From the IMG/VR virus record IMGVR_UViG_3300031343_000316, positions 1-20,808 of that record: a stretch of 20,808 nucleotides of DNA; one strand, written 5' to 3'. The notes under the pieces were generated by a model. The model was not told where the DNA came from. It saw only the letters and a list, made by a program, of their open reading frames with translations, and ran no database searches. Of this stretch, positions 2,696-20,437 are shown one piece after another. The position numbers and the translations under genes are program-made. This stretch comes from a virus. Every line of letters starts with the position of its first letter. Within the stretch, counting starts at the first letter, position 1.

Positions 2696-2738
2696 ACGGC
2701 GCGCAAGTATGTGCTCAGTGAGAACAAAATATGAACAA
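2696..2738. other. convergent junction between rml operon and prophage lysis end
   Basis: This 43-bp AT-richer spacer separates the stop of rmlA (plus strand) from the stop of the outer-spanin gene (minus strand). I see no convincing hairpin with a T-run in either direction, no tRNA end and no obvious attachment core. A short direct repeat of GAACA (in GAACAAAATATGAACAA, about 2722-2738) is the only pattern. If the prophage ends here, the attachment site should be in or beside this spacer, but nothing in the sequence proves it. Confidence 0.4.
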
Positions 2739-3902: not shown

Positions 3903-4214
3903 TCAGTCCGTACGCCCGCGCTGAAAGGCTTCGAACATCACGTCACGCATGGCGCGGATATCGGTCTCGATGCGGTCCAGCCGCTGGGCATCAGCCTGAC
4001 GGTCCTCGGCCCGCTGTGCTTCGATGCGGGTACGATCGGCGATGAGTTCGCGGTCCAGCCGCTGCAAGAGGGCTTCATTGGTAAAAGCGCGGCGCGTGAT
4101 GGCGGCAATCAGGGCAAGAAAGCCTCCGATCAGTGCGGTGATGGCTGCCGTCAGACCATGATCGCGGAAAGCCTGCCCGACCTCTGCCAAGCGGCCGGGA
4201 GTGTCATCGCTCAT
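3903..4214 (-). CDS. small membrane protein with C-terminal coiled coil (holin candidate)
   Basis: 103 aa. After a short acidic N-terminus there is one hydrophobic segment (about residues 22-40, TAAITALIGGFLALIAAI) followed by RR. A long, highly charged helix then covers about 45-100 (LLQRLDRELIADRTRIEAQR..., QRLDRIETDIRAMRDVMF) with heptad-like spacing, so a coiled coil is likely. Its ATG overlaps the upstream DUF2793 gene by 4 bp (ATGA) and it is the last gene before the terminator and lysis genes. Small size, a membrane segment and proximity to the endolysin make a holin plausible, but a single helix plus coiled coil could equally be another tail- or membrane-associated phage protein. I do not recognise a named family. 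Confidence 0.6.
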   Translation of the reverse strand: MSDDTPGRLAEVGQAFRDHGLTAAITALIGGFLALIAAITRRAFTNEALLQRLDRELIADRTRIEAQRAEDRQADAQRLDRIETDIRAMRDVMFEAFQRGRTD

Positions 4215-4964: not shown

Positions 4965-7900
4965 TTAGAAGTTCAGTGTCACGGTCTGGCTGGTTCCGCG
5001 CCCAACCAGCGCGGAGAGCTGTGCAATGCGGATATCGAGGGTATCGCCGGGACCCAGCAAGGATCCCCAATCCGCCATCTGCTGGGACGCCGTGTAGACC
5101 GCGTATGTTGTCGTGGTGCTCAAGGTCCGCTTCACGTCGGCCCCGTCGAGGATATCGACCTCATAAGCTTCACTGGCCTCGGACATCGGCACCTCGACCG
5201 CTTCCCAGCTGTCGCTGACCAGCGCGCGGTCGCGGCGGGTCCAGCGGAGGGTCAGATCGCCCGGGATGCGGCCGCGCCGCCAGGGCTGCTCGACATTGGC
5301 AACCGAGAATGGCCGCAGCCCGACACCTTGAGGCGTGAAGGTGCGTGCGATGTAGCTCTCGTCGGTGAATGGCAGCGATGCCGGGCCAATGCGCCAGTTC
5401 CACGGAATGCCAAGGTCGGATTGCGCGACAGGCATGCGCGACAGCGCTGCATCCAGCACAACAATGCGCGAGCCAGCTGCCACATTTGCCGCCACCGCGT
5501 GCTCAGTTCCGCGCTGGCCGCGCAGCAGGCGCGTGATGCGGTACCGTCCAGGTGCGATCAGTTCGGCCATGCTGCCCTGTACTATCTCCCAGACGCCGGG
5601 CGCGCTCTCGACCGCGAAAGCGTTGGCACCGCGAAACAGCGCAAGGTCCGTCATGCTCGCGAGCGTGCCGCTGCGCAGGTCGACCAACAGCGCGTTTGCC
5701 ATGTCAAAGCGCGACGTCGGCCCCGCTGCAAGGTCAGCGACAAGTGTGCCAAGGCGCGCCTGCGTACCAAAGGTCTGGAACAGCTCGAAGCCCTCATCCG
5801 CATAACTGCGCCAGACCGCGACATTCCCGGGCCACGGCCGGGCAAAACCCGCGATTAGCGGCTGGTGGTCAGTCTCCGCCTCAGTGAGTTGCGGCACATC
5901 GAGAAACACCACCTCCGTGCCGCCGAAGACGATGGGCCGCGCCAGCGAGGCTGCGCGCGGCTGGCCGGGTGGCAGATCATAAACGCTGCGATCCTGGAAC
6001 AGTGTTTCCATCGCCCGCGCGTCGCTGTCTGCAACGGAGACAACGCGCAGGTCGATCAGGCGCTGGTCGTGCTCAAGGCGCAAGACATCGCCGGGATCGA
6101 TGGCCAGGTGTGATGCAGGCAGACGGAAGGCAGCGCTTTCGCGGCCCACCCATGCCTCCATCAGCGCGCGGCGGCAGCGGCGCTCTGCTTCCTCGGGCGG
6201 CACCGCCAAGGGAAAGGACTCCGCGCTAACGCGGGACGCTTCAACCGTGATCCTGCGGGCCTCGACCAGCGCTGCGTCGTAATCCTCGTCCGCGCGCGCC
6301 ATCTGCCACTTCAGCGCTTGTGGCAGTTCGGTTTCCTGTCCGCGGGTCAGCTCAAAGACCTCACCGTCGCCGCTTGGTGCGGCAACCATGTCATCCGGAG
6401 ACATTGTGATGACTGGCGCGCGCCCGCGCATCAGAAACTTGATCACACCCTCACTCTCAACAGCATCAAAGCCAAAGTGTCGCGCCAACGTGGTCAGTGA
6501 TGTGCGCGGCGCTTCCAGCGCGCTGATTACATAGCCCTCGACCGCACCCCAGAGGCCGCTGACGTCGATGCGGTCCGCGGGCATTCCGGCGCGCGTGCAC
6601 AGCGTGCGCACCAGCGCTTGCAGCGACACGGACCCCAGTCGCCCGGTCAGCCAATGCCCGAGACGCCAGTTCGCCCCATCGGTCCAGACGTCCTGCAGTT
6701 CGGGAAACCACGGATAGGGCCGCGCGTCCCATGTCCAGGCGGCACATTCCGGGATCCGGATCATGCGGTCGCCGTACACAGTCGAGACCGGGTTGTTGGT
6801 GGGCTTGCCCCAATAGTCGAGGGTTGCCTCAAGATACGCCCGCTGGATGGCGTCGTCGCGCCAACCGCGCGAGAAGTGCGGCGCAAAGCTCTCGGACGAC
6901 TTGGGATCGAAAAACACGTTGGGCTGGTTGGCGCCCCGGTCGATGGCGGGGCATCCGAACTCGGTGAACCAGAAGGGCTTGGATTGCGGCACCCATGCGG
7001 TGGGCACAGCACTCTCGACACCACCGGGGCGGTTGAAGTGCGGGTTGCTCCACCAGCTGGGCAGGTCCTTGTTGCGGAAAACCCATGCTTTGGCCGCCGA
7101 GCCGTCTGTGATCGGGGTCCGCACTTGCGCAGTGCGATCATCAACGCCGACGTAGAACCAGTCGAAGCCTTCGCCACCTTCGATGTTGGATTGCAGGTAG
7201 TTGCTATCGTAGATCACCGGCCAGTTCTGGGCGTCGCGATGGGCATAGCCATCGCGCCAGTCGGACAGCGGCATGTAGTTGTCGATGCCGATGAAATCGA
7301 TGTTGGCGTCGGCCCAGAGCGGATCGAGGTGGAAATACACATCGCCGCTGCCATCGTCCGGGTGGTGGCCAAAATATTCTGACCAGTCGGCTGCGTAGCT
7401 GATCTTGGTGCCCGGGCCGAGAATCGCGCGCACATCCGCCGCAAGGGCACGCAATTGCGCGACGCTGGGATAGGTTCCAGCTGCAGAGCGGACCTGTGTG
7501 AGCCCGCGCATCTCCGAGCCGATGATGAATGCGTCGACGCCTCCAGCCGCTTTGCACAGATGCGCGTAATGCAGAACCATGCGGCGCAGGCTCCACTCAC
7601 CAGCGGGGCCGGTAAAGGTGACATTCGTGCCTGACACCACGAATTGTGCAGGCGTGGCCGCGCCGAACAGCGCCGCGACCTGCGCAGCGGCCGTGGCGGT
7701 TTTGTCCGCGGTGCCTGCGTATCCTGCGGCCGGGCTACAGGTAATCCGTCCGCGCCAGGGGAAAGCAGGCTGTCCTGCCTCGCCCGCATTGTCGCTGTAA
7801 GGGTTCGGCCGCGTATTGCCTGCGGGCACATCCATCAGGATGAACGGATAAAACGTCACGCGCAGCCCGCGCGCTTTGATCTCTTGAATCGCCTGCTCGA

Positions 7901-8933
7901 CCGTGAAATCTGCTGGCGTGCCGCCATAGACCGGTCGATTGGCGCTGTCGCGACTGACCAAATACGCGCTCGCGCGCCCCACGCCATTCACAGACCACCC
8001 GGGCGTCGTGCTTTTGCTGGCCGCCTCGACGCCGGGGCGCAGTTTGCAGCTCGCCGCGCGCAGATCATCCCCGAACCAGGCCACAACCAGCGAGGTGCTT
8101 TTGACCTTGGGGGCCTGCGCCTGCAGCCGGTCCAACGCCACCACGAAATCTGCGGTGCTGGCCAGCGCGTTGGCGTTCTCGGCCGTTGTTGCCGATCCTT
8201 CACGTTTGCGCACGATCTGTGTTGCATAGCTGAATTCGCCCGAGGCCGGGATGATGGTGACTGCCTTTGTCAGCCCCTCGGCAGTGTCGGGTTCCGCAAG
8301 CGGGCGGAAAACCTCGAAGGACAGCTGCGGCAGGCGGTTGCCGAAGGTCTCCAGCGCAAGCTCCTCGAACACGATATAAGCGGTGCCGCGATAGGCGGGC
8401 GTGTTCCCTGCACCCATTTTTGCCGCGATAAACGGGTCCGCTGTTTGCGTCTCATCACCCGGATACCAGCGCCAGACCACGCCTTGCATATCCATTGGCT
8501 TGCCGTCGGCCCAGATGCGTCCAATGCCGCTGATCGCGCCTTCGCTGATCGCAACCGCGAAGCTGGCGAAATACAGATACTCGGTGGTGGTGACCTTGCC
8601 GCCTCCACCGCCTTTGCCACCGCCTTGGGTGGTGGTGCGCACCTCCTCCCGAAAATCCGTGGCCCAGATCACATTGCCGCCCATGCGCATGCGCCCGTAA
8701 ACTCGGGGCAGGATCGCGCCTTCGGTCGAGGAGGTGATCCGCAGGTTGTCCAGTCGCGCGCCTTCGATCCGCTGACCAGGTGTCAGCGACGAGATGATCC
8801 AACTATCGACGACCGAGCCTATGGTTGAGCCAACAAAGCCACCGATGGCCGCACCGGTCAGCCCGAGGACCGTGCCGGAAATGAAGGTGCCGCCGAGGGC
8901 GGTGCCCACAGCGCCGAGAACAAGTGTGGCCAT
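4965..8933 (-). CDS. tail tip megatron protein with TIM-barrel domain (RcGTA orfg15-like)
   Basis: 1,322 aa, the largest gene here, matching the host-specificity/baseplate megatron family of RcGTA and related siphoviruses. The N-terminus (1-45) is hydrophobic and Gly/Ala-rich (MATLVLGAVGTALGGTFISG). A glycine loop TQGGGKGGGGGK sits at about 102-113. A glycoside-hydrolase-like TIM barrel spans about 340-765, with KISYAADWSEYFGHHP (510-525), IDFIGIDNYMPLSDW (545-559) and PFWFTEFGCPAID (653-665) as typical strands. The phage-tail_3-type and C-terminal fibre-related domains follow (about 770-1322). It starts 3 bp after the NlpC/P60 stop. In RcGTA the homologue forms the bulk of the baseplate and contacts the cell envelope. 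Whether the barrel is an active glycosidase cannot be told from sequence alone. Confidence 0.93.
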   Translation of the reverse strand: MATLVLGAVGTALGGTFISGTVLGLTGAAIGGFVGSTIGSVVDSWIISSLTPGQRIEGARLDNLRITSSTEGAILPRVYGRMRMGGNVIWATDFREEVRTTTQGGGKGGGGGKVTTTEYLYFASFAVAISEGAISGIGRIWADGKPMDMQGVVWRWYPGDETQTADPFIAAKMGAGNTPAYRGTAYIVFEELALETFGNRLPQLSFEVFRPLAEPDTAEGLTKAVTIIPASGEFSYATQIVRKREGSATTAENANALASTADFVVALDRLQAQAPKVKSTSLVVAWFGDDLRAASCKLRPGVEAASKSTTPGWSVNGVGRASAYLVSRDSANRPVYGGTPADFTVEQAIQEIKARGLRVTFYPFILMDVPAGNTRPNPYSDNAGEAGQPAFPWRGRITCSPAAGYAGTADKTATAAAQVAALFGAATPAQFVVSGTNVTFTGPAGEWSLRRMVLHYAHLCKAAGGVDAFIIGSEMRGLTQVRSAAGTYPSVAQLRALAADVRAILGPGTKISYAADWSEYFGHHPDDGSGDVYFHLDPLWADANIDFIGIDNYMPLSDWRDGYAHRDAQNWPVIYDSNYLQSNIEGGEGFDWFYVGVDDRTAQVRTPITDGSAAKAWVFRNKDLPSWWSNPHFNRPGGVESAVPTAWVPQSKPFWFTEFGCPAIDRGANQPNVFFDPKSSESFAPHFSRGWRDDAIQRAYLEATLDYWGKPTNNPVSTVYGDRMIRIPECAAWTWDARPYPWFPELQDVWTDGANWRLGHWLTGRLGSVSLQALVRTLCTRAGMPADRIDVSGLWGAVEGYVISALEAPRTSLTTLARHFGFDAVESEGVIKFLMRGRAPVITMSPDDMVAAPSGDGEVFELTRGQETELPQALKWQMARADEDYDAALVEARRITVEASRVSAESFPLAVPPEEAERRCRRALMEAWVGRESAAFRLPASHLAIDPGDVLRLEHDQRLIDLRVVSVADSDARAMETLFQDRSVYDLPPGQPRAASLARPIVFGGTEVVFLDVPQLTEAETDHQPLIAGFARPWPGNVAVWRSYADEGFELFQTFGTQARLGTLVADLAAGPTSRFDMANALLVDLRSGTLASMTDLALFRGANAFAVESAPGVWEIVQGSMAELIAPGRYRITRLLRGQRGTEHAVAANVAAGSRIVVLDAALSRMPVAQSDLGIPWNWRIGPASLPFTDESYIARTFTPQGVGLRPFSVANVEQPWRRGRIPGDLTLRWTRRDRALVSDSWEAVEVPMSEASEAYEVDILDGADVKRTLSTTTTYAVYTASQQMADWGSLLGPGDTLDIRIAQLSALVGRGTSQTVTLNF

Positions 8934-8936
8934 GGG

Positions 8937-9425
8937 TCAGGATCTCTTTTTGCGGGCGCGCTTTGGGCGCGGGAAACGAAAGGCAAAGGCAATGCGCCGC
9001 CGCCAGGCCTCGGTCAGGGGCTCCTCGATCACGCCGAGACGCTCATAGGCATGCACAAAGTGGTCAGGCGCGGTGAGAATGCCGACATGCTTGGCGATCG
9101 CACCGCGGTAGATGCGAAACAGGATCATGTCGCCGGGCGCGGCGCTGTCGACCGGCACCGCAATCATGGCGCGTGCTGCCCCTTCGAAGAGCACCTCGCG
9201 GTGCCCGGTCTCACCCCAATCGCGGCTGTAGGGAGGAATTGGCACCGGTTCCGGTCCCACAACGTCGCGCCAGACGCCGCGCGCGAGGCCGAGGCAGTCA
9301 CAGCCCACACTGCGCAGACTGGCCTGATCGTGATAGGGCGTGCCAAGCCATGCGCGGGCAGCGGCTACCACTACGTCCGGATCAGCGGGGCGGGGCGCGT
9401 GACGGCGCGTTGAGGTGGTGGTCAT
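8937..9425 (-). CDS. NlpC/P60-family tail peptidase (RcGTA orfg14-like)
   Basis: 162 aa, a cysteine peptidase of the NlpC/P60 fold found at the tail tip, thought to open peptidoglycan during DNA entry. The catalytic Cys is in GCDCLGLARG (Cys44), the catalytic His in AKHVGIL (His113), and the third polar residue is probably His125 (VHAYERL). AARAWLGTPY and APGDMILFRI are other hallmarks of the phage subfamily. It is translationally coupled to the DUF2163 gene (ATGA, 9422-9425) and precedes the megatron gene by 3 bp, exactly the RcGTA order orfg13-14-15. The C-terminus is strongly basic (RPKRARKKRS). Confidence 0.93.
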   Translation of the reverse strand: MTTTSTRRHAPRPADPDVVVAAARAWLGTPYHDQASLRSVGCDCLGLARGVWRDVVGPEPVPIPPYSRDWGETGHREVLFEGAARAMIAVPVDSAAPGDMILFRIYRGAIAKHVGILTAPDHFVHAYERLGVIEEPLTEAWRRRIAFAFRFPRPKRARKKRS

Positions 9426-10306
9426 AGAACATTGCCCTCGTGGCCACCGTCCTTGGTGGCGTAGCGGATGATGGCGTCCTGACCGGGGATGTGCGGAAAG
9501 CCGCGGAAGTTCACGTTGTTGGCAAACTTGTCCCGACAGGTCTCGACGCGCTTGTCGCAGCCTGCGCGGATCACGAAGGTATCGCTGGGTGTGATTGCCC
9601 GCACCGGTGCTTCGAGCAGCGTTATTGTGACGATCCCGCCCGACACGGCGTGGATCAGGACCTCTGCCAACCGCCCGTCATTCGCACCGGATGTCCAAGC
9701 CACCGTGCCGCCGGAAAACCAGCCATCCGCAAAGCTGAAAATGCCAGAGGCCAGAAAGGTGCGATCGCGCAGCAGGTCGGTCACCAGACCTGTGCCCTTG
9801 AAGGCCGGGTTCTCCAGATCAATCCCGCAGCGCGCATCGCCAAGGGCTGCGTCACAGGTTCCCTGAAAACTGCGCCCCACCGTCTGGCCCAGTACATGGG
9901 CCATGCTGCGCACCTCAGCCACAAAGGCTAACCGCCCACGCCTGATCTGCCCGATGGCCCCACGGCGCATGAGCACGCGCTGGCCCGTGTCGGCCCAATT
10001 GACCCGCCAGACCTCGACGGCCGCGTTGTCCCAGCGGCCATCGGATATGTCGGTCTCGCTAATGCGGTCCGAGGTCAGTACGCCCTCAGCGTCCTGCGCA
10101 TCGACCGACAGATCAGATCCCGACCGGACCTCAGAGGCCACAAGACCGCTCTCTGGCTCAAATGTGGTCTGGTCAAAGGTCAGGTGGCGATCATGATCGG
10201 TGAAACCCAGCACAACGCCGTCGGCCCGCGTGATGCGCCAGCACCACGCCAGCGTGGTCGTGCCGCTGTCGAGATGGGCTTGCAGGTCGGGTGAAAGGGT
10301 CTTCAT
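9422..10306 (-). CDS. DUF2163 tail hub protein (RcGTA orfg13-like)
   Basis: 294 aa. The N-terminal DUF2163 region shows LQAHLDSGTTTLAWCWRI and VVLGFTDHDRHLTF; the C-terminal BR0599-type region shows GTCDAALGDARCGIDL, VIRAGCDKRVETCRDKF and NNVNFRGFPHIPGQD. Four cysteines (151, 160, 250, 257) are spaced like those that bind an iron-sulfur cluster in lambda gpL-type hub proteins; that metal binding is inferred from the family. It forms the tail hub between distal tail protein and megatron. The start overlaps the stop of the heme-oxygenase-like gene (ATGA, 10303-10306) and its stop overlaps the NlpC/P60 start, so the accessory gene is wired into the core tail operon. Confidence 0.92.
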   Translation of the reverse strand: MKTLSPDLQAHLDSGTTTLAWCWRITRADGVVLGFTDHDRHLTFDQTTFEPESGLVASEVRSGSDLSVDAQDAEGVLTSDRISETDISDGRWDNAAVEVWRVNWADTGQRVLMRRGAIGQIRRGRLAFVAEVRSMAHVLGQTVGRSFQGTCDAALGDARCGIDLENPAFKGTGLVTDLLRDRTFLASGIFSFADGWFSGGTVAWTSGANDGRLAEVLIHAVSGGIVTITLLEAPVRAITPSDTFVIRAGCDKRVETCRDKFANNVNFRGFPHIPGQDAIIRYATKDGGHEGNVL

Positions 10307-10848
10307 CGCGCAGCCTCCGCCGCAATGCGCGGCGCCGCGAAATCATCCCGCGCGATGATCTCATCCATGACCGCCAGCAGACAGGCGAATGTGGCCCGGG
10401 CCTGAGGGGCAAGATCGACCCGGCCGCGGGTGTGCTGCACCCATGCCTGCACGGCCTCGGGATCACGGTAGACAATGTGGCCGCAAGGCAGCCCCCGCTT
10501 GATCAGCTTCGGGGCCAGCACCCGCCCGCCGCTCCGGTGCGCGCCATGCAAGACATAAGCCGCACCCGTGGTGTCCATGTCCGCATCAGAGCCGCAAAGC
10601 TGAAGCGCAAACCGCAGGGCAGCACGGCTCGGTGGTACCGCTGGCAGCACCGAGAGATCCGCTGCCAGCAATGCATCGCGGTGCATTTTTGCAGGCAGCG
10701 CCGGATCGACAATTTGGTGCAGTGTGCGAAACGCCGACAGCCAGGCGGCCCATTCCGCGCGGGTGATATTGCCCGCAGCCATGCGTTGCCCCAGTGGGTG
10801 TTGCTCGCAGGCGTGGTGCTGGTCGCGGGTCGCATCGAACAATGTCAT
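10303..10848 (-). CDS. heme-oxygenase-like protein in tail operon
   Basis: 181 aa from the ATG at 10848, which overlaps the stop of the DUF4376-type gene (ATGA). The open frame extends upstream to 11025, but that extension is low-complexity Arg/Gly sequence antisense in style and overlaps a better gene. The product resembles bacterial biliverdin-producing heme oxygenases: LFDATRDQHHACEQHPL has the H-x3-E of the proximal heme-ligand helix (His11/Glu15), followed by a helix NITRAEWAAWLSAFRTLHQIV. The distal-helix region GAAYVLHGAHRSGGRVLAPK (95-114) carries the Gly-rich kink expected over heme. Length is close to the small bacterial heme oxygenases. No other phage gene family comes to mind. The fold call is moderate; catalytic activity and why a tail operon needs it are unknown. 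Confidence 0.6.
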   Translation of the reverse strand: MTLFDATRDQHHACEQHPLGQRMAAGNITRAEWAAWLSAFRTLHQIVDPALPAKMHRDALLAADLSVLPAVPPSRAALRFALQLCGSDADMDTTGAAYVLHGAHRSGGRVLAPKLIKRGLPCGHIVYRDPEAVQAWVQHTRGRVDLAPQARATFACLLAVMDEIIARDDFAAPRIAAEAAR

Positions 10849-11420
10849 TCTGTCATTTCCGCAAGATATGCCGCCTGAAACAGCCCGGCGACATCGGCCT
10901 TTGTGGGATCGTCCATGGCGTCCAGCTGGGCGGCCACGACGCGCTCGGCCCGAAAGCAGGCTTTGACATGCGCGCCGACGGCCTGGGCCACGGCCGTGAC
11001 CTGTGCGGTGGTCAATTCCGCCCATCCGCTGTCGAGCTTGTAGGTGACGGGTTCAGTGATGAGACTCAGCTGCAGGGAATTGATCACGGCGGTGATCTGC
11101 GCCTGGCTTTCGCGGGTGGTCTGGATGCGCTGCCCACCCGGCAAATCGAGGCCTGCCGTCTCGTATCGCCAACGATGATCCGCCAGCTTTGCGAACGGAT
11201 CGCGTAGGCGCAGGGTTTCCAGCCATTCGGCGAGGGCTTTTGGATAATCCCGTTTCAGCGCGTCCAGACGCTGGCGCTGGACCAGCGCACTGTTGTGCGT
11301 CTCGAGGTGGTCCAACCCTGTCGAGATGCGCTCGCCTGGAGCGAGCATACCGCTCTGCAGGTCGTCCGTGCTGTGGGCAATCCAAAATGTGCGCGATTGT
11401 GCTGTCAGGCTGTGTGTCAT
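10845..11420 (-). CDS. DUF4376-type phage protein, probable tail fibre accessory
   Basis: 191 aa. The C-terminal half fits the DUF4376 pattern seen in phage tail-fibre loci: QRIQTTRESQAQITAVINSL (about 97-116), then WAELTTAQVTAVAQAVGAHV and KACFRAERVVAAQLDAM. The middle (about 45-90) is helical and charged (RQRLDALKRDYPKALAEWLE). It lies between the big repeat adhesin and the heme-oxygenase-like gene with 4-bp overlaps on both sides. Proteins of this type usually neighbour tail-fibre genes and may act as assembly factors. That role is an inference from position, since no catalytic motif is visible. Confidence 0.65.
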   Translation of the reverse strand: MTHSLTAQSRTFWIAHSTDDLQSGMLAPGERISTGLDHLETHNSALVQRQRLDALKRDYPKALAEWLETLRLRDPFAKLADHRWRYETAGLDLPGGQRIQTTRESQAQITAVINSLQLSLITEPVTYKLDSGWAELTTAQVTAVAQAVGAHVKACFRAERVVAAQLDAMDDPTKADVAGLFQAAYLAEMTE

Positions 11421-14311
11421 GTCGGGCTATCTCCTGTAATTGTCCAGCCCGCGCCCGCGTTGAGCACGGTCGCGCCAGACAGAACGCCTGTCCATGCGGC
11501 GACCTCCCACGCGTGGGTTCCGTCGCCGGTGGACTGTTCTGCGCTCGTGTCATCGAACAGGGTCCATGTCGGCCCCGACTTCAGGAAGAACCAGCCATTG
11601 CCGTTGACGTAGGATCCCGTCGCCGCGTTGAATGCATAACTTCCGTTTGCATCTGGATCAGACGCACCAACAACCGAAAGGGCCCGCGCAGCAACGAGGT
11701 ATGCGCGCCCATCGGCAGCGTTGGTGAAGCGCGAGGCGGGATAGTATGCGGTGGCATTGAAGGAACGACCCTCGAACGTGGTACTGACGATGAAGGGGCC
11801 GCTGTTCTGGGCAACACGGTTCGGCCATCCCGTGAGAAGGCGGGAGTAATTCTCTTCGGAGAACTGTCGGCCAGCCCCATCTGATTGATAATCGCGCATG
11901 AAGCCATCAAGCTGGACGCTCGGATTGAGGTTCCATCCTGAAATGTCTTCATCAAACGAATGGTTGCTTGTCCTGGCATCAAACATGCCGCGCATATCGG
12001 TAACGTTGGACACATCCCAATTGCCGATCGGCTGGTTGAAATCGCTGATTATGCCCTCGTTCTGACCGCGCCCGAACATCGCAAACATGTTGGTCACGGC
12101 AGACACATTCCAAGTGTTGATGCCCGGAGAGCCGCCGTTGTTAAACGGTTGGACCTGACCGCTGCCACGGCCGAGGCTGCCAAACATGTGCCGCATGATT
12201 ATGGCGCTGGAAACGTCCCAGTCCGACAGGTCCTGGTCGAAGTAGTTGGTGCGGGTATTTGTAAGACCCGTTGCGAACATTGCCTCAAAGGTCGTGACGT
12301 TGGAGACGTCCCAGTTGCCGATCGGCTGATTGAACGGGCAAGCGTTGAACATGAAACTCATGTCGAAGACATTGGCTAGTGTGCTTCCCTCGTCCTCCCA
12401 GCCTGCCAGCGGTTGGTTGTAGAGGCTGAACGAGAACATCTCGCTCATGTCGGTGACAGCGGAGACATCCCAGGCATTGAGGCTGCGGTTAAACCCGTGC
12501 ACCCCCGCCACGCCGCGGAACATACCGGCCATCGTGGTGACATTGGCAGTGTTCCAGCTGGAGATGTCCTGATTAAAACTGCGCGCTATAGCGAACATGC
12601 GGGTCATATTGGCCGCGGCCGAAGTGTTCCACTGGTTCAGAGGTTGGTTGAAGGCATGGGTGTTCTGGCTGATACCCGGATTACTCAGATGGCCCATGAA
12701 GCCCTCGAAATTCTGGACCACGCGCACATCCCAGGCGTTGATCGGCTGGTTAAAGTCCGCGCCAATGCCACCGACATTGGCATTGGCCGTGCAGCCGAAC
12801 ATCAGGCGCATGTTGGTGATGCTGCTCATGTCCCATGTCGCGATCGGCTGGTTGAAGCGCACGCGGCCGTCGCGCCCGCCGTAGTAATCGCCGATGGTCT
12901 GAACAAACATCTCCTCCATCGAGGTGAGGCTCTCCCAATTGCCCAAGGAGAACGGGCTGTTCATCTGGGAATTGGCAAAAGCCTGAAACACATCCTCCAC
13001 CCGGCCCACATCCCAGTTCGCGCAATTGGGGCCTGTGCCGTCGGAACGGAAGAATATCCGCCGGATCGTGGTGATGTTGCGCGTGTCCATGTCGCGCAGA
13101 TCGGCCGCGCAGGCGCTCTCGTAGAACAGTTCTTCAAAACTGGTGACAGTCTCTGGGATGTTTGGCGTGATGTAATCCAGCGCGATGGTGGTTCCGCGGA
13201 ACGCACCACGCAGGCTGGTCAGGCCCATGGCAAAGCCGATGTTCTCGACGCGCACCAGTCCGGCCTGATCTATCGGCTGGCTCGTGCCATACCAGTCCAT
13301 GCGTCCTGTCAGTGTTACAGTGACACGCGGGCCCACGCTCTCGGCATAGGCATGCGGCTTGATCCCCGGTGTGGTGAACCGCTCGGTGCTGCCATCGCCC
13401 CAATCGATGGTCACGTCGAGCGGGTTGTTCACGGTGCCGCCGCCCAGCGGGATGTGGATTGTGCGCGCGGTGGCCAGCGTCAGATCATAGGTCAGAATCA
13501 GCGACGCTGCGCCCAGAAAGAACACCCTTGGGCTCGACCAGTTTGAATAAATCACCGGTGCGGCGGCATTGAGCCGCCCGCCATAGCGGCTGCGCCAGAG
13601 ATAATCTTGTGCGGGCTCCAGCGGCGGGATCGGTACGGTGGTGATCGCTCCGCCGGTCTGGGTCACGGTGATCGGCGGCGCATCGACACCCGGCGTCGCA
13701 TCGGGCGCGTAAAACTCGGTCTGGGTCTCGGCATAGCCATAGCCAAAGATCGCAGCGCTTTCAAAATCGGTCACACGCACGGTGCCGGTGATGGCATTCT
13801 CGCGGGTGATCGGGCTGGGACGCGAAATCAGCTCCGGAAACGTCTGGGCATAGGGCACGGAGAAGTTCGACTGCGCACCGCCCGTTCCGGTGTAGGCCGC
13901 GCGCCAGAGCACGCGATCGCCGGGGCCAAAGCCGTCCTCGGGAAACTCGATCTGATAGGCATTGCCGAAGCCCGGCACGATGCGCGTGATCGCGCCGTCA
14001 AAATCCGCCCCATTGGTGGAAATCTCGAAGATGATCCCGGTCTGCTCGAGGCCAGCAGGTGAGCGAAACGTGGTCAGGCGCAGCTGGGTGCGCTCATCCA
14101 CGCTGAACGGCACCAGTGCGGACGGGCGCAGGATCTCGTTATCCTCGATGGGCACGATCCATTCGAGGCCGTTCGAGTAGTAGAACTGGCCGTCCTCGCC
14201 CACCACTGCCGCCCCGAAATACTGCGCGGCGTCGAGCGGGATCGGGACGGGATAGATCAGGGATTGGCCGACAAAGCGGCCCCGGCCAGTGCCGTAGCTG
14301 AGCGCGCTCAT
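11417..14311 (-). CDS. BspA-like DUF285 repeat tail protein, candidate receptor-binding adhesin
   Basis: 964 aa. The N-terminal 270 residues are beta-rich and look like a phage structural base with Ig/Fn3-like strands (WRAAYTGTGGAQSNF, DYLWRSRYGGRLNAAAPVIY). Residues about 271-340 contain a PKD-like domain (DVTIDWGDGSTERFTTPG). About 391-805 hold some 13 units of the DUF285/BspA leucine-rich-type repeat, for example FNQPIGNWDVSNVTDMRGMF, FNQDISSWNTANVTTMAGMF and FNRSLNAWDVSAVTDMSEMF. The C-terminus (about 840-964) is a beta-rich tail. It sits in the accessory block between distal tail and hub genes, with ATGA overlaps on both sides. DUF285 proteins elsewhere are surface adhesins, so host-receptor or surface binding is the likely role; it could instead be a side fibre or capsid decoration. 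Confidence 0.85.
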   Translation of the reverse strand: MSALSYGTGRGRFVGQSLIYPVPIPLDAAQYFGAAVVGEDGQFYYSNGLEWIVPIEDNEILRPSALVPFSVDERTQLRLTTFRSPAGLEQTGIIFEISTNGADFDGAITRIVPGFGNAYQIEFPEDGFGPGDRVLWRAAYTGTGGAQSNFSVPYAQTFPELISRPSPITRENAITGTVRVTDFESAAIFGYGYAETQTEFYAPDATPGVDAPPITVTQTGGAITTVPIPPLEPAQDYLWRSRYGGRLNAAAPVIYSNWSSPRVFFLGAASLILTYDLTLATARTIHIPLGGGTVNNPLDVTIDWGDGSTERFTTPGIKPHAYAESVGPRVTVTLTGRMDWYGTSQPIDQAGLVRVENIGFAMGLTSLRGAFRGTTIALDYITPNIPETVTSFEELFYESACAADLRDMDTRNITTIRRIFFRSDGTGPNCANWDVGRVEDVFQAFANSQMNSPFSLGNWESLTSMEEMFVQTIGDYYGGRDGRVRFNQPIATWDMSSITNMRLMFGCTANANVGGIGADFNQPINAWDVRVVQNFEGFMGHLSNPGISQNTHAFNQPLNQWNTSAAANMTRMFAIARSFNQDISSWNTANVTTMAGMFRGVAGVHGFNRSLNAWDVSAVTDMSEMFSFSLYNQPLAGWEDEGSTLANVFDMSFMFNACPFNQPIGNWDVSNVTTFEAMFATGLTNTRTNYFDQDLSDWDVSSAIIMRHMFGSLGRGSGQVQPFNNGGSPGINTWNVSAVTNMFAMFGRGQNEGIISDFNQPIGNWDVSNVTDMRGMFDARTSNHSFDEDISGWNLNPSVQLDGFMRDYQSDGAGRQFSEENYSRLLTGWPNRVAQNSGPFIVSTTFEGRSFNATAYYPASRFTNAADGRAYLVAARALSVVGASDPDANGSYAFNAATGSYVNGNGWFFLKSGPTWTLFDDTSAEQSTGDGTHAWEVAAWTGVLSGATVLNAGAGWTITGDSPT
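11897..13141 (-). repeat. DUF285 coding repeat array (about 13 units)
   Basis: Degenerate tandem units of roughly 23-35 codons with core [F]NQP[IL]xxWDVSxVTxMxxMF. Some units keep high DNA identity: 12001-12040 and 12295-12334 agree at about 35 of 40 bases (core ttgccgatcggctg). Spacer length between cores varies, so units carry loops of different size. Such arrays can lose, gain or shuffle units by recombination. Confidence 0.85.
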
Positions 14312-14721
14312 GTGATCACCGTGAATTCTTCGCGTTGGTTGAGGATGAAAGAAAAGTGCGCGACGGCCGCTTCGCCAGCCTCGACCTTCATTTGCAGCCG
14401 CTCACCCGATTTAAGCACCTGGCGGTCAAGCCCAATCGAGAGCACATCGCCCGAGGGGGCAAAGGCGCGGTCGAGCAGCAGCCACGGCGTGTTGTTCAGC
14501 GCCAGCACCCGGATCGAGACGCGCACAGCGGCCTCGGCCGCAGGCGTGATCAGCACGCCGGTCATGATGGCGGCGGCGGCAATGGCGCGCGCTGGATCTG
14601 GCCCAGAGGCTGGGATCAGGTAATCGGGCACGTCATAGACCGTGGCCCAGTCGGTAGTCAGCGTCTGGCGGACGACCTCGAAGAGGTTCAGCGGTGGACG
14701 CGGTGTAGTGATAGTGGCCAT
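14308..14721 (-). CDS. small beta-sandwich phage structural protein
   Basis: 137 aa, family not firmly recognised. It begins MATITTPRPPLNLFEVVRQ, continues TTDWATVYDVPDYLIP, then alternating hydrophobic strands VRVSIRVLALNN and WLLLDRAFAPSG, and ends VLKSGERLQMKVEAGEA and VAHFSFILNQREEFTVIT. The pattern of a start-up coupling segment, an inter-strand charged turn and a GDxLxI...L.xGExLxxK ending resembles small beta-sandwich structural proteins that accompany tail-fibre genes in marine phages. It starts 3 bp after the beta-helix gene and overlaps the repeat adhesin by 4 bp, so it probably co-assembles with one of them. Function is inferred from context only. Confidence 0.6.
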   Translation of the reverse strand: MATITTPRPPLNLFEVVRQTLTTDWATVYDVPDYLIPASGPDPARAIAAAAIMTGVLITPAAEAAVRVSIRVLALNNTPWLLLDRAFAPSGDVLSIGLDRQVLKSGERLQMKVEAGEAAVAHFSFILNQREEFTVIT

Positions 14722-14724
14722 GGG

Positions 14725-16695
14725 TCAGGCTCCGAGACCGATGATGAGAGGAAGGGCGATGTTCTGGACACCGCGCGAGAAGGCCTGGCCTTCGATGGTG
14801 TTGCGCTCGAAATCCACCCGCAGGTCTTCGCCAAGATAGGTGTCGCCGACCTCGGTGGAGAAGGTGGCGTAGATCCGGCCACCGCCGGTCTTGAGCAGGG
14901 TGCTGGCGGGATCAGGGGCGCGGCCGGTGCCACGCTGGCTGAAGGGCAGCGCGTTGTAATTGACGCCGGAGCCTGCGTAGCTGAACTGCTGGCCGGTGGC
15001 CTCGATGACGGAGGCAAAGCCCACGCGGTAGTCTTGCGGACGCGCGATCACATCCGAGATCAGTCCGATCAGGGAGGTGATCATGGCCTGTGCCGCGTTG
15101 TCGGTGATCCGGTCGACCAGCTCGAGGCGGACCTGCTCCCAAGTGGCGAGAAACAGCGGCACGAGGGCGATGGAGAAGACATAATTGGCGTTCCAGTCGA
15201 AGAGCCCTTTGGCAAAGGACTGCGCGCAGCGGTCCTGGCCTGAGCGCAGATCATTGATCAGGCTGCGCAGCAGGGTGCGGGTGTCGCGCTCGGTGAAAGC
15301 CTTGTCGCGCTCCGACAGGCCATTGAAGCCTGCAAGAGTTGGATAGCGGGTGCCCATCAGGGCAGTGATGATGGCCTCGGTCTGGGCGGTGATTGTGTTG
15401 GCGGTGGCGGTTTGGGTGGCCAGCACGCCGGTTCCGGCCAGCCCTTCGATCTGGACCGTGTTGCGAAACCCCGTCGCAGCGAGGGCATAATCGCCAAAGG
15501 TGTTGTTAGAGTTGGCGACGGTGATCTGGCCGCCGTCATGCGCCCAGAGGCCGACGCGGGCCCAGTTGGTGAAGACCGAGACCAGCTGGACAAAAGCGTT
15601 GCGGGTGACGGCGTAACCCACGCCATTGGGATTGATCGCGGTATAGCTGTCGACCACCACCGAGCGCAGCGGGGAGGACGGGGCGAGCACCGAGCCGTCG
15701 GCCAGCAGGTTGCCCCCGCCTCGCGGCATCAGGGGATTGCCTGCGGCTTTGTCGATCGGAAGGCTCATCTGGTCTTGGGTGAAGGCATGCAGCTGCGAGC
15801 AATCGGCAATATAGGGTGATCGCGTGAGAAGCTCGCCGGGCTTGAAGACGAAGGCCCAGCCTTTTTGCGGTGGTCCGCCCGCCAGGGTGTAGGGCTCATG
15901 GCGCAGGTTTGAAAAGGTAAAGCCGCGGGCTTTAATGCCGTTGGACATCTGGAACATGTTGTTCACCTCTTGGCCGGGCGGCAGGCTCAGCTTGGTGACG
16001 CGCAGATCGTAGCCGTAAAGCGCGCAGTTGGCGGAGATGATCGTATTGGGCGGCACAGTGTATTCGCCGGGCTGTACGATCACCACGCAGGGCTGCGCTA
16101 CAGCGGCTGCGCGCGCGAGGCCCTCGGCAATGGAGGCCAGGGGTGCGGTCAGCGAGGAGCCCTCGTTTAGGTCCTTGCCGTCCATGGTGACATAGAATGT
16201 TCGCGCGACGGGCAGCGAGACAAAGGGCAGCCGCTCGAGGCTGCAGACCTCGACGTCTGTGGCGTGATTGATCCCGAACGTGCGCACCCAGGGAATGGCG
16301 TAGCGTGCACCGATTGGGGCCACGACGCTGGAGGGGCCATCGGCTTCTGCAACGACGGAGGTGCGGACCTCGCGCCGCCCGTCCGCGACCGTGAAATTGA
16401 GGATGGTCTCGATGGTTGTTGTGGACAGCGGGGTCTTGTCCGCTGCCAGCCAGTCGATGCCGCAAGCAATGGCATCGTCGGAGGGATCGGGGCTGTTGGT
16501 GGCACGCCGAAACACAGCGCGGAACGCATAGCGCTCCTCGGCCTCGATCGGCACTGGCGCGACGGCTGTGACCTGCTGGCTGGAATTGAGGCGGACGACT
16601 TTGCCGTCTGCGTTTTGCGCAACAAGCCCGCCGTCGATGTCGTACAGCTGGGGCGTGTCGCCCGGGCGATGCTCAAGGGGCGTATAAGTTTGCAT
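14725..16695 (-). CDS. parallel beta-helix phage structural protein
   Basis: 656 aa. Residues about 165-405 have the turn-rich repeats of a right-handed beta-helix: TFYVTMDGKDLNEGSSLTAP, VVIVQPGEYTVPPNTII, YGYDLRVTKLSL, RGFTFSNLRH, TRSPYIADCSQ, SVVVDSYTAINPNGVGYAV and NAFVQLVSVFTNWARVGLWA, then NSNNTFGDYALAATG. This string of motifs closely resembles a structural protein family I know from T4-like marine cyanophages. The N-terminal 160 residues look like a beta-sandwich attachment domain, and the C-terminal 240 are helical then beta (EDLRVDFERNTIEGQAF). The ATG at 16695 has AAGGA about 8 nt upstream and is 11 bp from the DUF2460 stop. Likely a tail-side fibre, spike or decoration protein; no catalytic residues can be assigned. 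Confidence 0.78.
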   Translation of the reverse strand: MQTYTPLEHRPGDTPQLYDIDGGLVAQNADGKVVRLNSSQQVTAVAPVPIEAEERYAFRAVFRRATNSPDPSDDAIACGIDWLAADKTPLSTTTIETILNFTVADGRREVRTSVVAEADGPSSVVAPIGARYAIPWVRTFGINHATDVEVCSLERLPFVSLPVARTFYVTMDGKDLNEGSSLTAPLASIAEGLARAAAVAQPCVVIVQPGEYTVPPNTIISANCALYGYDLRVTKLSLPPGQEVNNMFQMSNGIKARGFTFSNLRHEPYTLAGGPPQKGWAFVFKPGELLTRSPYIADCSQLHAFTQDQMSLPIDKAAGNPLMPRGGGNLLADGSVLAPSSPLRSVVVDSYTAINPNGVGYAVTRNAFVQLVSVFTNWARVGLWAHDGGQITVANSNNTFGDYALAATGFRNTVQIEGLAGTGVLATQTATANTITAQTEAIITALMGTRYPTLAGFNGLSERDKAFTERDTRTLLRSLINDLRSGQDRCAQSFAKGLFDWNANYVFSIALVPLFLATWEQVRLELVDRITDNAAQAMITSLIGLISDVIARPQDYRVGFASVIEATGQQFSYAGSGVNYNALPFSQRGTGRAPDPASTLLKTGGGRIYATFSTEVGDTYLGEDLRVDFERNTIEGQAFSRGVQNIALPLIIGLGA

Positions 16696-16706: not shown

Positions 16707-17336
16707 TTAGCTGAGGCGGAGTTCCACAAGCGGGATGGATGTGATCGAGCCGAGGCGCTCGATATCGAGGGTGACGTCCATCAGATCGCTGTCGAAGCGG
16801 ACCGGCACGTCGAACTGATAGCCAGCTGTGATAGAGACGTCGGAGTCCGGAGCCGCATCAAACGTGATGATCCCGGTGTCATTATCGATGGACCAGCCAT
16901 TGAACTGCTCTGCTCCGCTAAGCGCGACACGCACTGTGCCCGCAACCGGCTTCTCGATGCGGCGCTGGTAGATGTGGGGCGCGGTGCCATAGGCTTTGGT
17001 CAGCGCGAACGCTGTGGTCTCGCCATCCCCGGTGCCTATCAGCTGATCCATCTCAGAAACGCCCTTTGAGGGCGCGCAGGATTTGTAATCCGCCCAATCC
17101 TTGAAGCGGAAGCCATAGAGCCGCCCGAGGCGGGCCTCAAAGAAGGCGACCACCGCGTGCAGGTCATCGACGCGGCGGATGCCGTAGGAGACATCGTAGC
17201 GACGCCGCGAGGCCGACCAGCTGGCGTTGCGCTCCTCACGGCCCGAAGCCAGCTCAACAATCTGCGTGCGGCGTTGTGGCCCGCCACGCGCGCCGCGGCT
17301 GATATTGTCGGGGAACTGCACCTCGTGAAACGCCAT
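16707..17336 (-). CDS. DUF2460 distal tail protein (RcGTA orfg12-like)
   Basis: 209 aa. Family hallmarks: MAFHEVQFPDNISRGARGGP, RRTQIVELASGREERNASW, the YDVSYGIRRVDDLHAVVAFFE segment, GRLYGFRFKDWADYKSC and TITRPVAGTVRV-type turns here as RRIEKPVAGTVRVAL. The C-terminus VPVRFDSDLMDVTLDIER and SITSIPLVELR completes the pattern. In RcGTA this protein joins the tail tube to the hub. The start shares a base with the tape measure stop (TAATG at 17338-17334). In RcGTA the next gene would be the DUF2163 hub; here an accessory block of 6.4 kb intervenes. Confidence 0.92.
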   Translation of the reverse strand: MAFHEVQFPDNISRGARGGPQRRTQIVELASGREERNASWSASRRRYDVSYGIRRVDDLHAVVAFFEARLGRLYGFRFKDWADYKSCAPSKGVSEMDQLIGTGDGETTAFALTKAYGTAPHIYQRRIEKPVAGTVRVALSGAEQFNGWSIDNDTGIITFDAAPDSDVSITAGYQFDVPVRFDSDLMDVTLDIERLGSITSIPLVELRLS

Positions 17337-19744
17337 TACATGCCCCTCCGGCCCATGGAGACCGCGCGGGCGATATCGGCTGCGACCTGCGTTCTGCTCT
17401 GCCGGAAGCTTTCGGCATCACGGGTCTGGATGTTGATGGTGACGCCGCCGCCACTGTTGCCGCCTCCACCAGCGCCACCGTGGCTGCGGGCCTCCCGCCG
17501 CGAGAGCACGCGCTCGCCACGCTGCAGGATCGCCGGGACCTCGTCGGATTTGAGCCCGGCCCAGCCACCTTGGTGCATTCTGGGCGCGTTGGCGAAAGCT
17601 ATGGCAGGCACCATGCGCGAGGGCGCAGGACCGCCCACGATACCGCCCTGATGGAACACACCGGCAAACATGCCACCGAGGTTGCCCAGCGCGCCGGAAA
17701 GCGCATTGGCAATGGGCCCGAGGATGAACTTGCGTGCGCCGAGCTTGGCGAGGTCCGCGATCATCGAGGTGACCAGGCCTTTGAAATCCAGCTTGCCGGT
17801 CTTCACAAAGTTCCCGATCGCGTCTTCCGCACTTTGAAACGCGCTCACGAGCACGTTGCCGATGTCTGCGCCCACATCGCGGGCTTTGTCCGCGTATTCG
17901 CTGACCGCGTTCACAACCGCCTGCCAGCCAGTGGCTGCCGCCTCGGCACCCTTGGCCGCATCAGTACCTGCCTGACGCGCTGCCCCACCCGCGCGGCCTG
18001 CCTGATCCTCGGTCTCCTCCAGCGCATTGTTGAACCGGTCCGCTGAATTGGCGGCACTTTCGAGCGCCGCCGTGCCTTCATCGCCCGCACCAGAAATGGC
18101 ATCCTTCAGCGCCTGCCATGCGGTCATGGGGCGGGACGCTGCATCTGAGAGCATTCCAGCTGCCTCGGCATAGCCAGCCGCCCTGCCGCGCGCATCATCT
18201 GCCATGCCGCCAAAGAGTTCAGGCACCTGGAATGGATTGTCCGAGAAGGCCCTGTCGTAGGCCTCCCGCGCCCGCGCTCCAAGGTTAACGGCTTCCAGGA
18301 CCGCGGACTGCCATTCCGAGAGATCAGGGGCTGCGATGGCCCATTCGGGACGCAGACCGCCAAGGGTCAATACGCCGTTGACCGCCTCGGTAATGCCCGC
18401 AATGCCGGTCTCCATCACCTCGACCAGACCGTTGATTGCAAGTGCACCAACGCGCTCGAAAACATCCGGCAGCGCGTCCCAGATGGCCTGCACTGCAAGG
18501 AACGTGCCCTCGAATGTGTTGACGGTACTGTTTGCCCAGCCGACCACCGCCGCTGTTGCATCTTGCAGACCGTCATAAATACCGGCCTGCGCCGTGGCCC
18601 ATCCGGCTTCCACGCGTGCCCAAGCTGCATCCGCGCTGAGCGATACCCGGTCCCAGACCTCAACCGCCACGTCCTTGAGCAGATCAAGCGCGTTGCCGAA
18701 CCCGCCCGCGCCAGAAACCAGCCGCGTGAACTGATAGACCAGCTCGCCTGCGCCAACGATTAGCGCACCGATGCCGGTGCGGATCAGCGCTGCGCGCAGA
18801 AAGACCAGACCGGTCACCAGCCCACTGACCGAGAAGGTCGCGGCCACAAGCCCGGCCACCCACCGGCCCGCCATCACGCCTGCGAAGGTCACGGCGTATG
18901 TGGTCAGTCGGCCAATGTTCTCAAACAGACCCTGAATGGCACTTCCAAGAGGACCGGTTGTGCGCGCCATCGCCGCCAGCGCATCCGCTACTGCTTCAAG
19001 CGCGGGTGCTGCGGCCACCGCCAGCTGGTTTGAGACGCCGCGCCAGATCAGACCGAGGCGGGAGATCGCATCATTGGTGCGCTCGATCTGGTCCGCGTCC
19101 TGCTCAGAGACAACGATGCCAAAATCATTCACATCAGCGGTGGCCTGACGCAGCGTGGCGGTATCAATGCGGGTGAACACGATGGCCGCGCGATCGCCAA
19201 AGAACTGCGAGGCAACCGCCGCACGCTCTGCCTCCGGCACGAACTCCGCCAGCCGGTCCTGGATCAAAGCGATGCGCTGATCGAGCGGCAGGTTTTGTAG
19301 CTCGCTGACTGAGAGCCCAAGGCGGTCGAGGGCATCGACGGCTGGGCCCGCACCGGCGGCAGCCTGGCTTAACCGTCGTGTCAGCTGCACCGTGGCCTGC
19401 TCGACATTGCCCATGGAGACGCCCGAGAGGTCAGCAGCACGCTCCAGCACCTGCAAGCTTTCGACCGTCGTATCGAGCGATTGCGCCAGCTTTGCGGTTT
19501 GGTCGATCGTTTGCAGTCCGGAGCGGATCATCGCAGCACCAGCTGCCACCACAGCTGCACCTGCGGCTGCCGCTGCGATCGTGGCGCGGCGCGTGAATGC
19601 AGCAAGCCGTGCGTTGGCCACATCGACCTCGCGCGACAGCCGCCCGAGCCCGCGCGCGCCAGCGTCGCCAATGCCAATCAGCTCCGCCTTTACTTGTCGT
19701 CCGCCAACGGCTGCGAGGCGCACGAAGACGCGTTTATCGGCCAT
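17336..19744 (-). CDS. tail length tape measure protein
   Basis: 802 aa from the ATG at 19744, preceded by GGAGGG; the ATG at 19765 lacks a ribosome binding site. It overlaps the end of the GT frame by 11 bp. The N-terminal part is helical and Ala-rich (EVDVANARLAAFTRRATIAAA), with hydrophobic stretches at about 55-75 and 285-335 as in other tape measures. The C-terminal part matches the lambda-type tape measure region (NFVKTGKLDFKGLVTSMIAD, then LGARKFILGPIANALSG and GGIVGGPAPSRMVPA, SDEVPAILQRGERVLSR), followed by a Gly-rich linker and basic end. It sets tail length and is ejected with DNA. At about 0.15 nm per residue the tail would be near 120 nm, which is an inference. It is much longer than the short RcGTA tape measure. 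Confidence 0.92.
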   Translation of the reverse strand: MADKRVFVRLAAVGGRQVKAELIGIGDAGARGLGRLSREVDVANARLAAFTRRATIAAAAAGAAVVAAGAAMIRSGLQTIDQTAKLAQSLDTTVESLQVLERAADLSGVSMGNVEQATVQLTRRLSQAAAGAGPAVDALDRLGLSVSELQNLPLDQRIALIQDRLAEFVPEAERAAVASQFFGDRAAIVFTRIDTATLRQATADVNDFGIVVSEQDADQIERTNDAISRLGLIWRGVSNQLAVAAAPALEAVADALAAMARTTGPLGSAIQGLFENIGRLTTYAVTFAGVMAGRWVAGLVAATFSVSGLVTGLVFLRAALIRTGIGALIVGAGELVYQFTRLVSGAGGFGNALDLLKDVAVEVWDRVSLSADAAWARVEAGWATAQAGIYDGLQDATAAVVGWANSTVNTFEGTFLAVQAIWDALPDVFERVGALAINGLVEVMETGIAGITEAVNGVLTLGGLRPEWAIAAPDLSEWQSAVLEAVNLGARAREAYDRAFSDNPFQVPELFGGMADDARGRAAGYAEAAGMLSDAASRPMTAWQALKDAISGAGDEGTAALESAANSADRFNNALEETEDQAGRAGGAARQAGTDAAKGAEAAATGWQAVVNAVSEYADKARDVGADIGNVLVSAFQSAEDAIGNFVKTGKLDFKGLVTSMIADLAKLGARKFILGPIANALSGALGNLGGMFAGVFHQGGIVGGPAPSRMVPAIAFANAPRMHQGGWAGLKSDEVPAILQRGERVLSRREARSHGGAGGGGNSGGGVTINIQTRDAESFRQSRTQVAADIARAVSMGRRGM

Positions 19745-20437
19745 CCAGCCCTCCAATCTGTTCATTCACGCGTTTGACCATGACGGCTTCGATCTCGGGC
19801 AGCAGCTCCATCGCTGCGAGGCCGTTGATGCCAAGGGCGCGCGCCATGGCCAGCGCAGCTCCCATGTCCCAGCCGAGGATGGTCTGTTGTGTGGCGCGCA
19901 GCTGGCCGCCCAGCCGTCCGACCAGGTCCCAGACCTGCGCGCCCTCAAAGGTCTGGGGACGGTTTATTTTGGCTGGGCACTCCGGGCACGGGACTTTGCA
20001 TGCCTCGCGGGCTTCGTAAGTCTCGAGGGCTTCGCAAGCCTCGCAGTAGCGATCGCCCCCGCTGAAGTGCCAGTCAGCAAGGGCGCGGAGACGTTTTTTT
20101 CCTGATCCAGGATCAGTGCCTTGGCGACGTAGCCTGCCTGGAAGGCCTCGAAGATCGGATAGATGTCGAGCAAGGCGTCGACACCGTCAGCCGTCAGGTC
20201 CAGCACGTTGCCGTCCATGTCGCCCACGCCCTCCCATTCCACCACGGCGCGCCGCCCCAGCGCCTTGGCAAAGACCAGCGCGCGGTCCTCAACGCTGGCG
20301 TCCTCGGGAAGGGCTTCAATGCTGGGATCGTTGCGGGTGGTCACCATCAGGGCGGTGGTGAGCGGGAGCAGGCGCACCCGGACGCCGGGGGCGAGATCGA
20401 GCCAGCGCGGATCGGTCGAGAGGTCAAGCTTCAGCAT
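19734..20437 (-). CDS. tail assembly chaperone GT (-1 frameshift fusion)
   Basis: The T part (20093-19737, stop TAA 19736-19734) has no start codon upstream of its conserved segment and is open from the slippery site. A -1 shift on A-AAA-AAC (20099-20093) joins 115 residues of G to 119 residues of T, giving 234 aa. The T sequence begins RLRALADWHFSGGDRYCEAC, carries a cysteine cluster (CEAC, then EACKVPCPEC), and continues GAQVWDLVGRLGGQLRATQQ, ILGWDMGAALAMARALGING and AAMELLPEIEAVMVKRVNEQ. The pattern of a G gene with a T extension made by -1 frameshifting, just before the tape measure, is the classic lambda-like arrangement; that this segment is T-like is clear from position and coding quality. 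T overlaps the tape measure start by 11 bp. Confidence 0.85.
19964..20437 (-). CDS. tail assembly chaperone G
   Basis: 157 aa, the zero-frame chaperone product. The ATG at 20437 begins MLKLDLSTDPRWLDLAPGVR and follows GGAGG by 10 nt; the open frame runs on to 20515 but overlaps the tail tube gene. RVRLLPLTTALMV, ALPEDASVEDRALVFAKAL and EWEGVGDMDGNVLDLT are typical of the small gpG-like chaperones of Rhodobacteraceae phages. The segment FEAFQAGYVAKALILDQEKN leads directly into the slippery site. After it the zero frame is a low-complexity basic tail (RLAKPSRLTKPARHAKS), apparently shaped by overlap with the shifted frame. The protein binds tape measure protein during tail assembly. The start is 2 bp after the tail tube stop. 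Confidence 0.87.
   Translation of the reverse strand: MLKLDLSTDPRWLDLAPGVRVRLLPLTTALMVTTRNDPSIEALPEDASVEDRALVFAKALGRRAVVEWEGVGDMDGNVLDLTADGVDALLDIYPIFEAFQAGYVAKALILDQEKNVSAPLLTGTSAGAIATARLAKPSRLTKPARHAKSRARSAQPK
20004..20041 (-). repeat. 18-bp tandem repeat translated in two frames
   Basis: Two adjacent 18-bp units, 20004-20021 and 20022-20039 (consensus ctcgNgggcttcgNaagN on the plus strand), followed by a partial third unit. In the G frame they give RLAKPSRLTKPA and in the T frame EACEALETYEAREACK. Because 18 is a multiple of 3, both frames survive unit gain or loss. Confidence 0.7.
20093..20116 (-). promoter_or_regulatory. -1 frameshift slippery site with upstream hairpin
   Basis: On the minus strand seven As and a C give A-AAA-AAC in the G reading frame (GAA AAA AAC, 20101-20093), a canonical X-XXY-YYZ heptamer. 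Directly 5' lies CTGATCC-T-GGATCAG (20116-20102), a 7-bp inverted repeat able to form a short hairpin. The frame after the shift is open for 119 codons. Efficiency cannot be judged from sequence. Confidence 0.8.

Follow-up and report, generated by a model that had tools for sequence, protein, structure and literature searches.

A junction-specific insertion slot in tail operons of the gene transfer agent type, and a putative fibre module with a predicted heme oxygenase fold within it

IMG/VR record IMGVR_UViG_3300031343_000316 is a viral sequence of 20,808 bases, and the whole record was analyzed (termed here the window). Its minus strand encodes a tail operon of the gene transfer agent (GTA) type, in which five extra genes are inserted between the genes for the DUF2460 distal tail protein (g12-like) and the DUF2163 hub protein (g13-like). 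Comparison with related loci, from phages of marine bacteria of the Roseobacter type, shows that the DUF2460-DUF2163 junction is a general slot with alternative contents, and that this property is specific to that junction. In the window the slot appears to carry a fibre module whose proteins would dock on the DUF2460 protein and whose variants would spread by recombination through the flanking genes. The probability of this reading as a whole is estimated at about 0.8.

Loci were fetched from viral contigs and named genomes with the DUF2163 and DUF2460 proteins, i.e. they were selected by similarity of the flanking genes and not by the interval (a few entered through a query with the protein of the fifth extra gene), and the DUF2460-DUF2163 interval was measured in each. 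After removal of duplicates there are 153 distinct loci. The slot is empty in 76 of these, holds a lysis cassette in 49, the five-gene set in 16, a single long fibre gene in six and other contents in six, among the latter one antitoxin-GNAT pair. In the empty state the two flanking genes usually overlap by 4 nt. The interval is longer than 300 bp in 76 of the 153 loci, whereas the four other junctions of the operon exceed this length in 3/147, 3/148, 2/138 and 6/93 loci; the slot pattern is therefore more than chance. The cultured Rhodobacter and Roseobacter phages RcSwan, RcOceanus, RcKemmy, RDJL3, vB_PmaS-R3 and R4C display an empty slot, and that of RcCronus has just a 108-base open reading frame (ORF). 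An earlier reading of the window from its letters alone (the sequence-only reading) had taken the five genes to be a host-interaction module swapped at a fixed point in a conserved operon, as opposed to core genes present in all relatives. The fixed swap point is upheld, with the same flanking genes and varied or absent cargo across the loci, and the five genes are not common to all relatives. Host interaction is too narrow a description of the slot, as most filled slots hold lysis cassettes and one a toxin-antitoxin pair. No literature on the slot was found in the searches made.

The lysis cassette encodes a 116-aa membrane-type protein, a phage lysozyme (PF00959, 1.5e-22), a small protein, an Rz-like spanin (phrog_1026, 6.9e-4) and a short lipoprotein-like ORF. 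At L012:9257-9841 an HNH endonuclease gene is found within the cassette. The slot at L157:8158-9020 contains an antisense pair, i.e. a TacA-type antitoxin (PF08681, 3.4e-24) and a GNAT toxin-like protein; this pair has no PADLOC match as a listed defence gene. Three further loci (L322, L324 and L325) display the five genes and a lysis cassette together in one slot. The interval at L216:9935-11164 of Jannaschia seosinensis was rejected as cargo because a transposase breaks the start of the DUF2163 gene.

All five genes of the window were located on the minus strand at the place claimed in the sequence-only reading, and their close joining is as described there: cargo 1 lies 11 nt after the DUF2460 gene, a gap of 3 nt follows, and the remaining genes show 4-nt overlaps, the last of the series being that of the cargo 5 stop codon with the DUF2163 start (ATGA). 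The labels it had given to cargo 3 (DUF285), cargo 4 (DUF4376-type) and the tail flanks (DUF2460, DUF2163, NlpC/P60 and megatron) all agree with family matches (Table 1). A chimeric assembly was ruled out because the five-gene arrangement is found in several contigs and in the genome of a cultured strain.

Cargo 1 (656 aa) has a jelly-roll-like N-terminal domain at about positions 31–157 and a pectate-lyase-like middle region; there is a weak beta-helix Pfam match and a profile match to pectate lyase 1ru4 (E 0.0055). The structural model has an overall predicted local distance difference test score (pLDDT) of 49.8, the N-terminal domain being modelled well and the rest poorly. In Foldseek the N-terminal domain of this model, which is of low overall confidence, matches carbohydrate-binding modules and tailspike domains. 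The 137-aa cargo 2, a beta-sandwich protein by the guess of the sequence-only reading, has no curated family above cut-off in Pfam/PHROG-type and further family scans. Cargo 3 (964 aa) displays PARCEL repeats (TIGR02167, 7.1e-19) with repeat units in five stretches, and its gene has the most divergent alleles of the module. The DUF4376 domain of cargo 4 scores 71.2 against a 25-bit cut-off. In L123, L126 and L130 only the first 68 codons of the DUF4376 gene are left, and L247 has a short version of 82 codons; it is the N-terminal part that stays constant.

These protein families point to host interaction of the five-gene module. The tailspike-like and DUF285-repeat proteins are probably the parts that bind the host surface, the 137-aa protein is a constant partner, and the DUF4376 protein is probably an assembly factor. 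The junction itself would be a tolerated insertion slot of phages with a GTA-type baseplate: cargo oriented like the tail genes presumably shares their transcript, and start-codon coupling to the hub gene is retained in many cassettes, so that the tail would still assemble. No sign of diversity-generating or invertase-driven switching was noticed in the window, though no systematic search was made.

The distal tail protein of the Rhodobacter capsulatus gene transfer agent (RcGTA) bears an OB-type insertion domain (PMC7296036), which is contacted by the RcGTA tailspike TspA (PMC13420450). The insertion region of the DUF2460 proteins, taken as residues 90–171, is 74% identical between the empty and lysis classes, and 74% identical within the empty class. 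Between the five-gene and single-fibre classes the identity is 52%, despite 90% identical cores. Structural cargo thus seems to go with its own insertion domain and non-structural cargo does not, which fits docking; by analogy with TspA, the DUF2460 insertion (OB) domain is the probable docking site of the fibre proteins of the slot. At L225:3872-5911 the DUF2460 sequence and that of a beta-helix-like fibre form one in-frame fusion.

Cargo 5 (181 aa) is predicted to have a heme oxygenase fold. A model built from 12 relatives has a pLDDT of 91 and its best Foldseek matches are heme oxygenases (5e-05). A second aligner gives a Z of 19.1 to rat heme oxygenase-1 (HO-1), with a root mean square deviation of 2.3 over 170 residues, and a profile search of Protein Data Bank sequences finds human HO-1 (E 0.0028). 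The heme-oxygenase-like label, originally given by eye, thus gains the backing of structure prediction. The window protein has no match to the heme oxygenase family PF01126, and its best relative scores 21.5 against the 23-bit cut-off. There is also no curated family above cut-off, no PADLOC match as a defence gene, and no match in a sequence search of 50,697 phage records with the window protein as query; no mention of a heme-oxygenase-like tail gene was found in the literature searched. A cellular relative (L269:8372-9840) shares 65% identity with one of the phage proteins and is separated by about 400 bp from a truncated bacteriophytochrome-type PAS/GAF gene beside a transposase. Because of this location, a derivation of the phage gene from a bacteriophytochrome-linked heme oxygenase is hinted at.

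The function of cargo 5 may be considered in three ways. The equivalents of HO-1 His25, Glu29, Tyr134, Gly143 and Gly144 are invariant in 51/51 distinct relatives, the proximal heme-ligand His being kept in all, and heme binding is therefore plausible. Asp140 is needed for heme oxygenase activity in HO-1. Its equivalent is His in 49 relatives, Tyr in one and Thr in one, and is never Asp; ordinary heme oxygenase activity is therefore doubtful. A working heme oxygenase, i.e. an auxiliary metabolic gene that supplies the infected cell with iron or biliverdin and has no relation to fibres, would agree with the invariant residues and with the PAS/GAF neighbor of the cellular relative, but the replaced Asp and the location of the gene, which stays beside fibre or fibre-chaperone genes across tail types, make this rather improbable. 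The protein could also be solely a chaperone of fibre folding or assembly that has borrowed a helical fold and binds no heme. A position just behind the fibre gene is typical of fibre chaperones in phages, and the HO-like gene consistently comes right after fibre or Phage_tail_APC genes, in tails of the GTA type and in others. However the invariant heme-ligand His and its neighbors are not obviously needed without heme, and such a chaperone is possible at somewhat less than one chance in three. An equally tentative proposal is that in alphaproteobacterial phages of several tail types a heme-binding protein of this fold is fixed in the fibre module, either in the virion or for fibre assembly or triggering. 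Under the preferred reading of the slot, cargo 5 would belong to the module throughout; it may still bind heme, but a normal heme oxygenase is improbable.

The five genes might instead be the ancestral core of the window lineage, with empty slots and lysis cassettes elsewhere arising by loss or replacement and no swapping in the window lineage. The set is kept in all close relatives and comes close to a single clade on the DUF2460 tree, where the five-gene state changes twice (once in another tree count); on the DUF2163 tree, however, it changes five times. The presence of the lysis cassette changes about 29–30 times on the trees, vs. about 44 times with shuffled labels. Thus the module is tied to a DUF2460 lineage of its own, and gains and losses of the lysis cassette have been frequent. 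The five-gene set is nearly fixed within its own lineage, and swapping there is therefore mostly recombination of alleles inside and downstream of the set. Such recombination is evident in several loci. Compared with the window, L002 has flanks of 92% and 83% DNA identity vs. cargo of 73, 66, 58 and 65%, and in L139 the DUF285 and DUF4376 genes (81 and 78%) are closer to the window than are both flanks (76 and 67%). The tailspike gene of L136 shows a crossover at about residue 500, from window-like (88–98%) to 100% L099-like sequence. The module is also found in unrelated tails and therefore travels as a unit. In genome G305 all five genes, in unchanged order, follow a different tail, and no DUF2460 or DUF2163 genes were found near them. 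Several other viral contigs have the tailspike, small protein and HO-like genes around different fibre genes, and in still others the HO-like gene comes directly after Mtd_N/collagen-type fibre or Phage_tail_APC genes and before endolysin genes. Recombination and mobility of the module, together with the frequent turnover of the lysis cassette, make the ancestral core explanation unlikely.

Exchange at a tolerated slot, with variants that would be passed on by homologous recombination via the conserved flanks and within the module itself, is the preferred reading, and several points weigh against it. The full beta-helix model of cargo 1 is poor, so that structure does not confirm a beta-helix. 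As the DUF2460 tree places the five-gene set in nearly a single lineage, what is termed cargo is partly lineage history. The insertion-domain contrast comes from few independent lineages, and the L225 fusion is possibly a broken gene, the fibre seeming to run on in a second ORF. The class counts are not population frequencies, the loci being picked by similarity to the flanking genes of the window. The comparisons and models show the slot, its alternative contents and its specificity to this junction, the recombination and mobility of the module and the predicted fold of cargo 5, whereas docking, receptor binding, the assembly role and heme binding are inferred.

Table 1. Positions of the tail operon, the slot contents and the host flank in the window
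Feature	Position	Strand	Evidence
Tape measure (g11-like), upstream flank	17336..19765	-	PF09718 8.5e-22, phrog_8462 7e-174
DUF2460 distal tail protein (g12-like), left border of slot	16707..17336	-	PF09343 2.6e-87
Cargo 1, 656-aa tailspike/fibre-like protein	14725..16695	-	PHROG tail-fibre matches up to 1.6e-22
Cargo 2, 137-aa small protein, family-less, kept in module	14308..14721	-	15-sequence alignment
Cargo 3, 964-aa DUF285/PARCEL-repeat protein, putative receptor-binding protein	11417..14311	-	PF03382 1.5e-73
Cargo 4, 191-aa DUF4376 protein, putative fibre-assembly protein	10845..11420	-	PF14301 1.2e-19, phrog_10508 tail fibre 5.6e-23
Cargo 5, 181-aa protein with predicted heme oxygenase fold	10303..10848	-	predicted model, structural match, residue conservation
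DUF2163 hub protein (g13-like), right border of slot	9422..10306	-	PF09931 4.1e-61, PF09356 1.1e-27
NlpC/P60 tail peptidase (g14-like)	8937..9425	-	PF00877 2.3e-07
Megatron (g15-like)	4965..8933	-	PF13547 3.5e-154, PF13550, PF23666
DUF2793 protein, possible megatron-linked fibre	4211..4954	-	PF10983 1.3e-31
Small protein with hydrophobic stretch, holin-like by eye	3903..4214	-	translation; same position in Aliiroseovarius prophage
M15-type endolysin with C-terminal hydrophobic segment	3153..3848	-	PF08291 8.9e-28
Host flank rmlB (partial), rmlD, rmlA	1..2695	+	Pfam; rmlA 88% identical (protein) beside Aliiroseovarius prophage

The closest cultured relative of the window prophage is found in Aliiroseovarius sp. 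S1123 (L173), where the five genes are present. Roseovarius sp. TE539 (L174) has a divergent five-gene version in which the first gene is apparently broken, and one metagenome-assembled genome (L247) has another version of the set. A 17.6-kb stretch of the Aliiroseovarius contig runs colinear to the window, with 78% identity, and extends to rmlA at the same place; the window is therefore most likely the end of a prophage integrated next to rml genes, and this suggests an integration site common to both prophages. The prophage end lies in positions 1–3150, between the endolysin gene and rmlA, where no tRNA was found. Gene transfer agents are characterized by the absence of an integrase, a conserved locus beside cysE and lysis genes elsewhere in the genome. 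The window element does not fit a gene transfer agent: the endolysin gene, which is its lysis gene, is next to the tail genes and outside of the slot, the flank is rmlA in both the window and Aliiroseovarius, and related records have an integrase, as does the Aliiroseovarius contig about 23 kb upstream.

Rare inserts of near-constant length occur at two other junctions of the operon, i.e. about 786 bp between the tape measure and DUF2460 genes in L028, L182 and L232, and about 510 bp between the megatron and DUF2793 genes in L028, L054, L175, L198, L209 and L228. The DUF2163 translation of the window has four Cys residues (TCDAALGDARCG ... GCDKRVETC), which may correspond to the four cysteines of the iron-sulfur site of the RcGTA hub.

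The g11-g15 homologues of the window (tape measure, DUF2460, DUF2163, NlpC and megatron) are in the same order as in RcGTA (rcc01694-rcc01698), RcSwan, RcOceanus, RDJL3 and R4C. The DUF2460 and DUF2163 genes are adjacent in the RcGTA tail cluster (PMC11409702), as in phages with the same baseplate, whereas the window has 6.4 kb of fibre-type genes between them as the sole interruption. TspA is a beta-helix tailspike at the baseplate and is comparable to the window protein by type. It is encoded elsewhere in the genome, and no phage homologue of it beyond a stretch of 46–71 residues is reported (PMC13420450, 2026 preprint), whereas the tailspike-like gene of the window sits directly after DUF2460. 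The slot resembles the exchangeable loci for fibres and receptor-binding proteins of tailed phages in general in its conserved N-termini and divergent C-termini, its recombination and the chaperone-type gene adjoining the fibre gene. It differs in that it is placed between the genes for the distal tail and the hub, can also accept lysis and toxin-antitoxin genes, and in the window-type module has the HO-fold gene as a constant member. Cargo 5 shares with the heme oxygenase family the fold, the proximal His, Glu, Tyr and Gly-Gly, and differs in its score below cut-off, the change of the catalytic Asp to His and the linkage to phage fibre genes.

The junction provides a precise address for exchange of fibre and lysis genes in GTA-type phages, which aids host-range prediction and the annotation of Rhodobacteraceae prophages. 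The module offers a phage-encoded candidate for the partner of the distal-tail OB domain. It also brings to light a family of proteins, with a predicted heme oxygenase fold, that is tied to fibre genes and is the most interesting part of the finding. If the tentative heme-binding role in the fibre module is true, this protein would tie phage adsorption to heme or iron.

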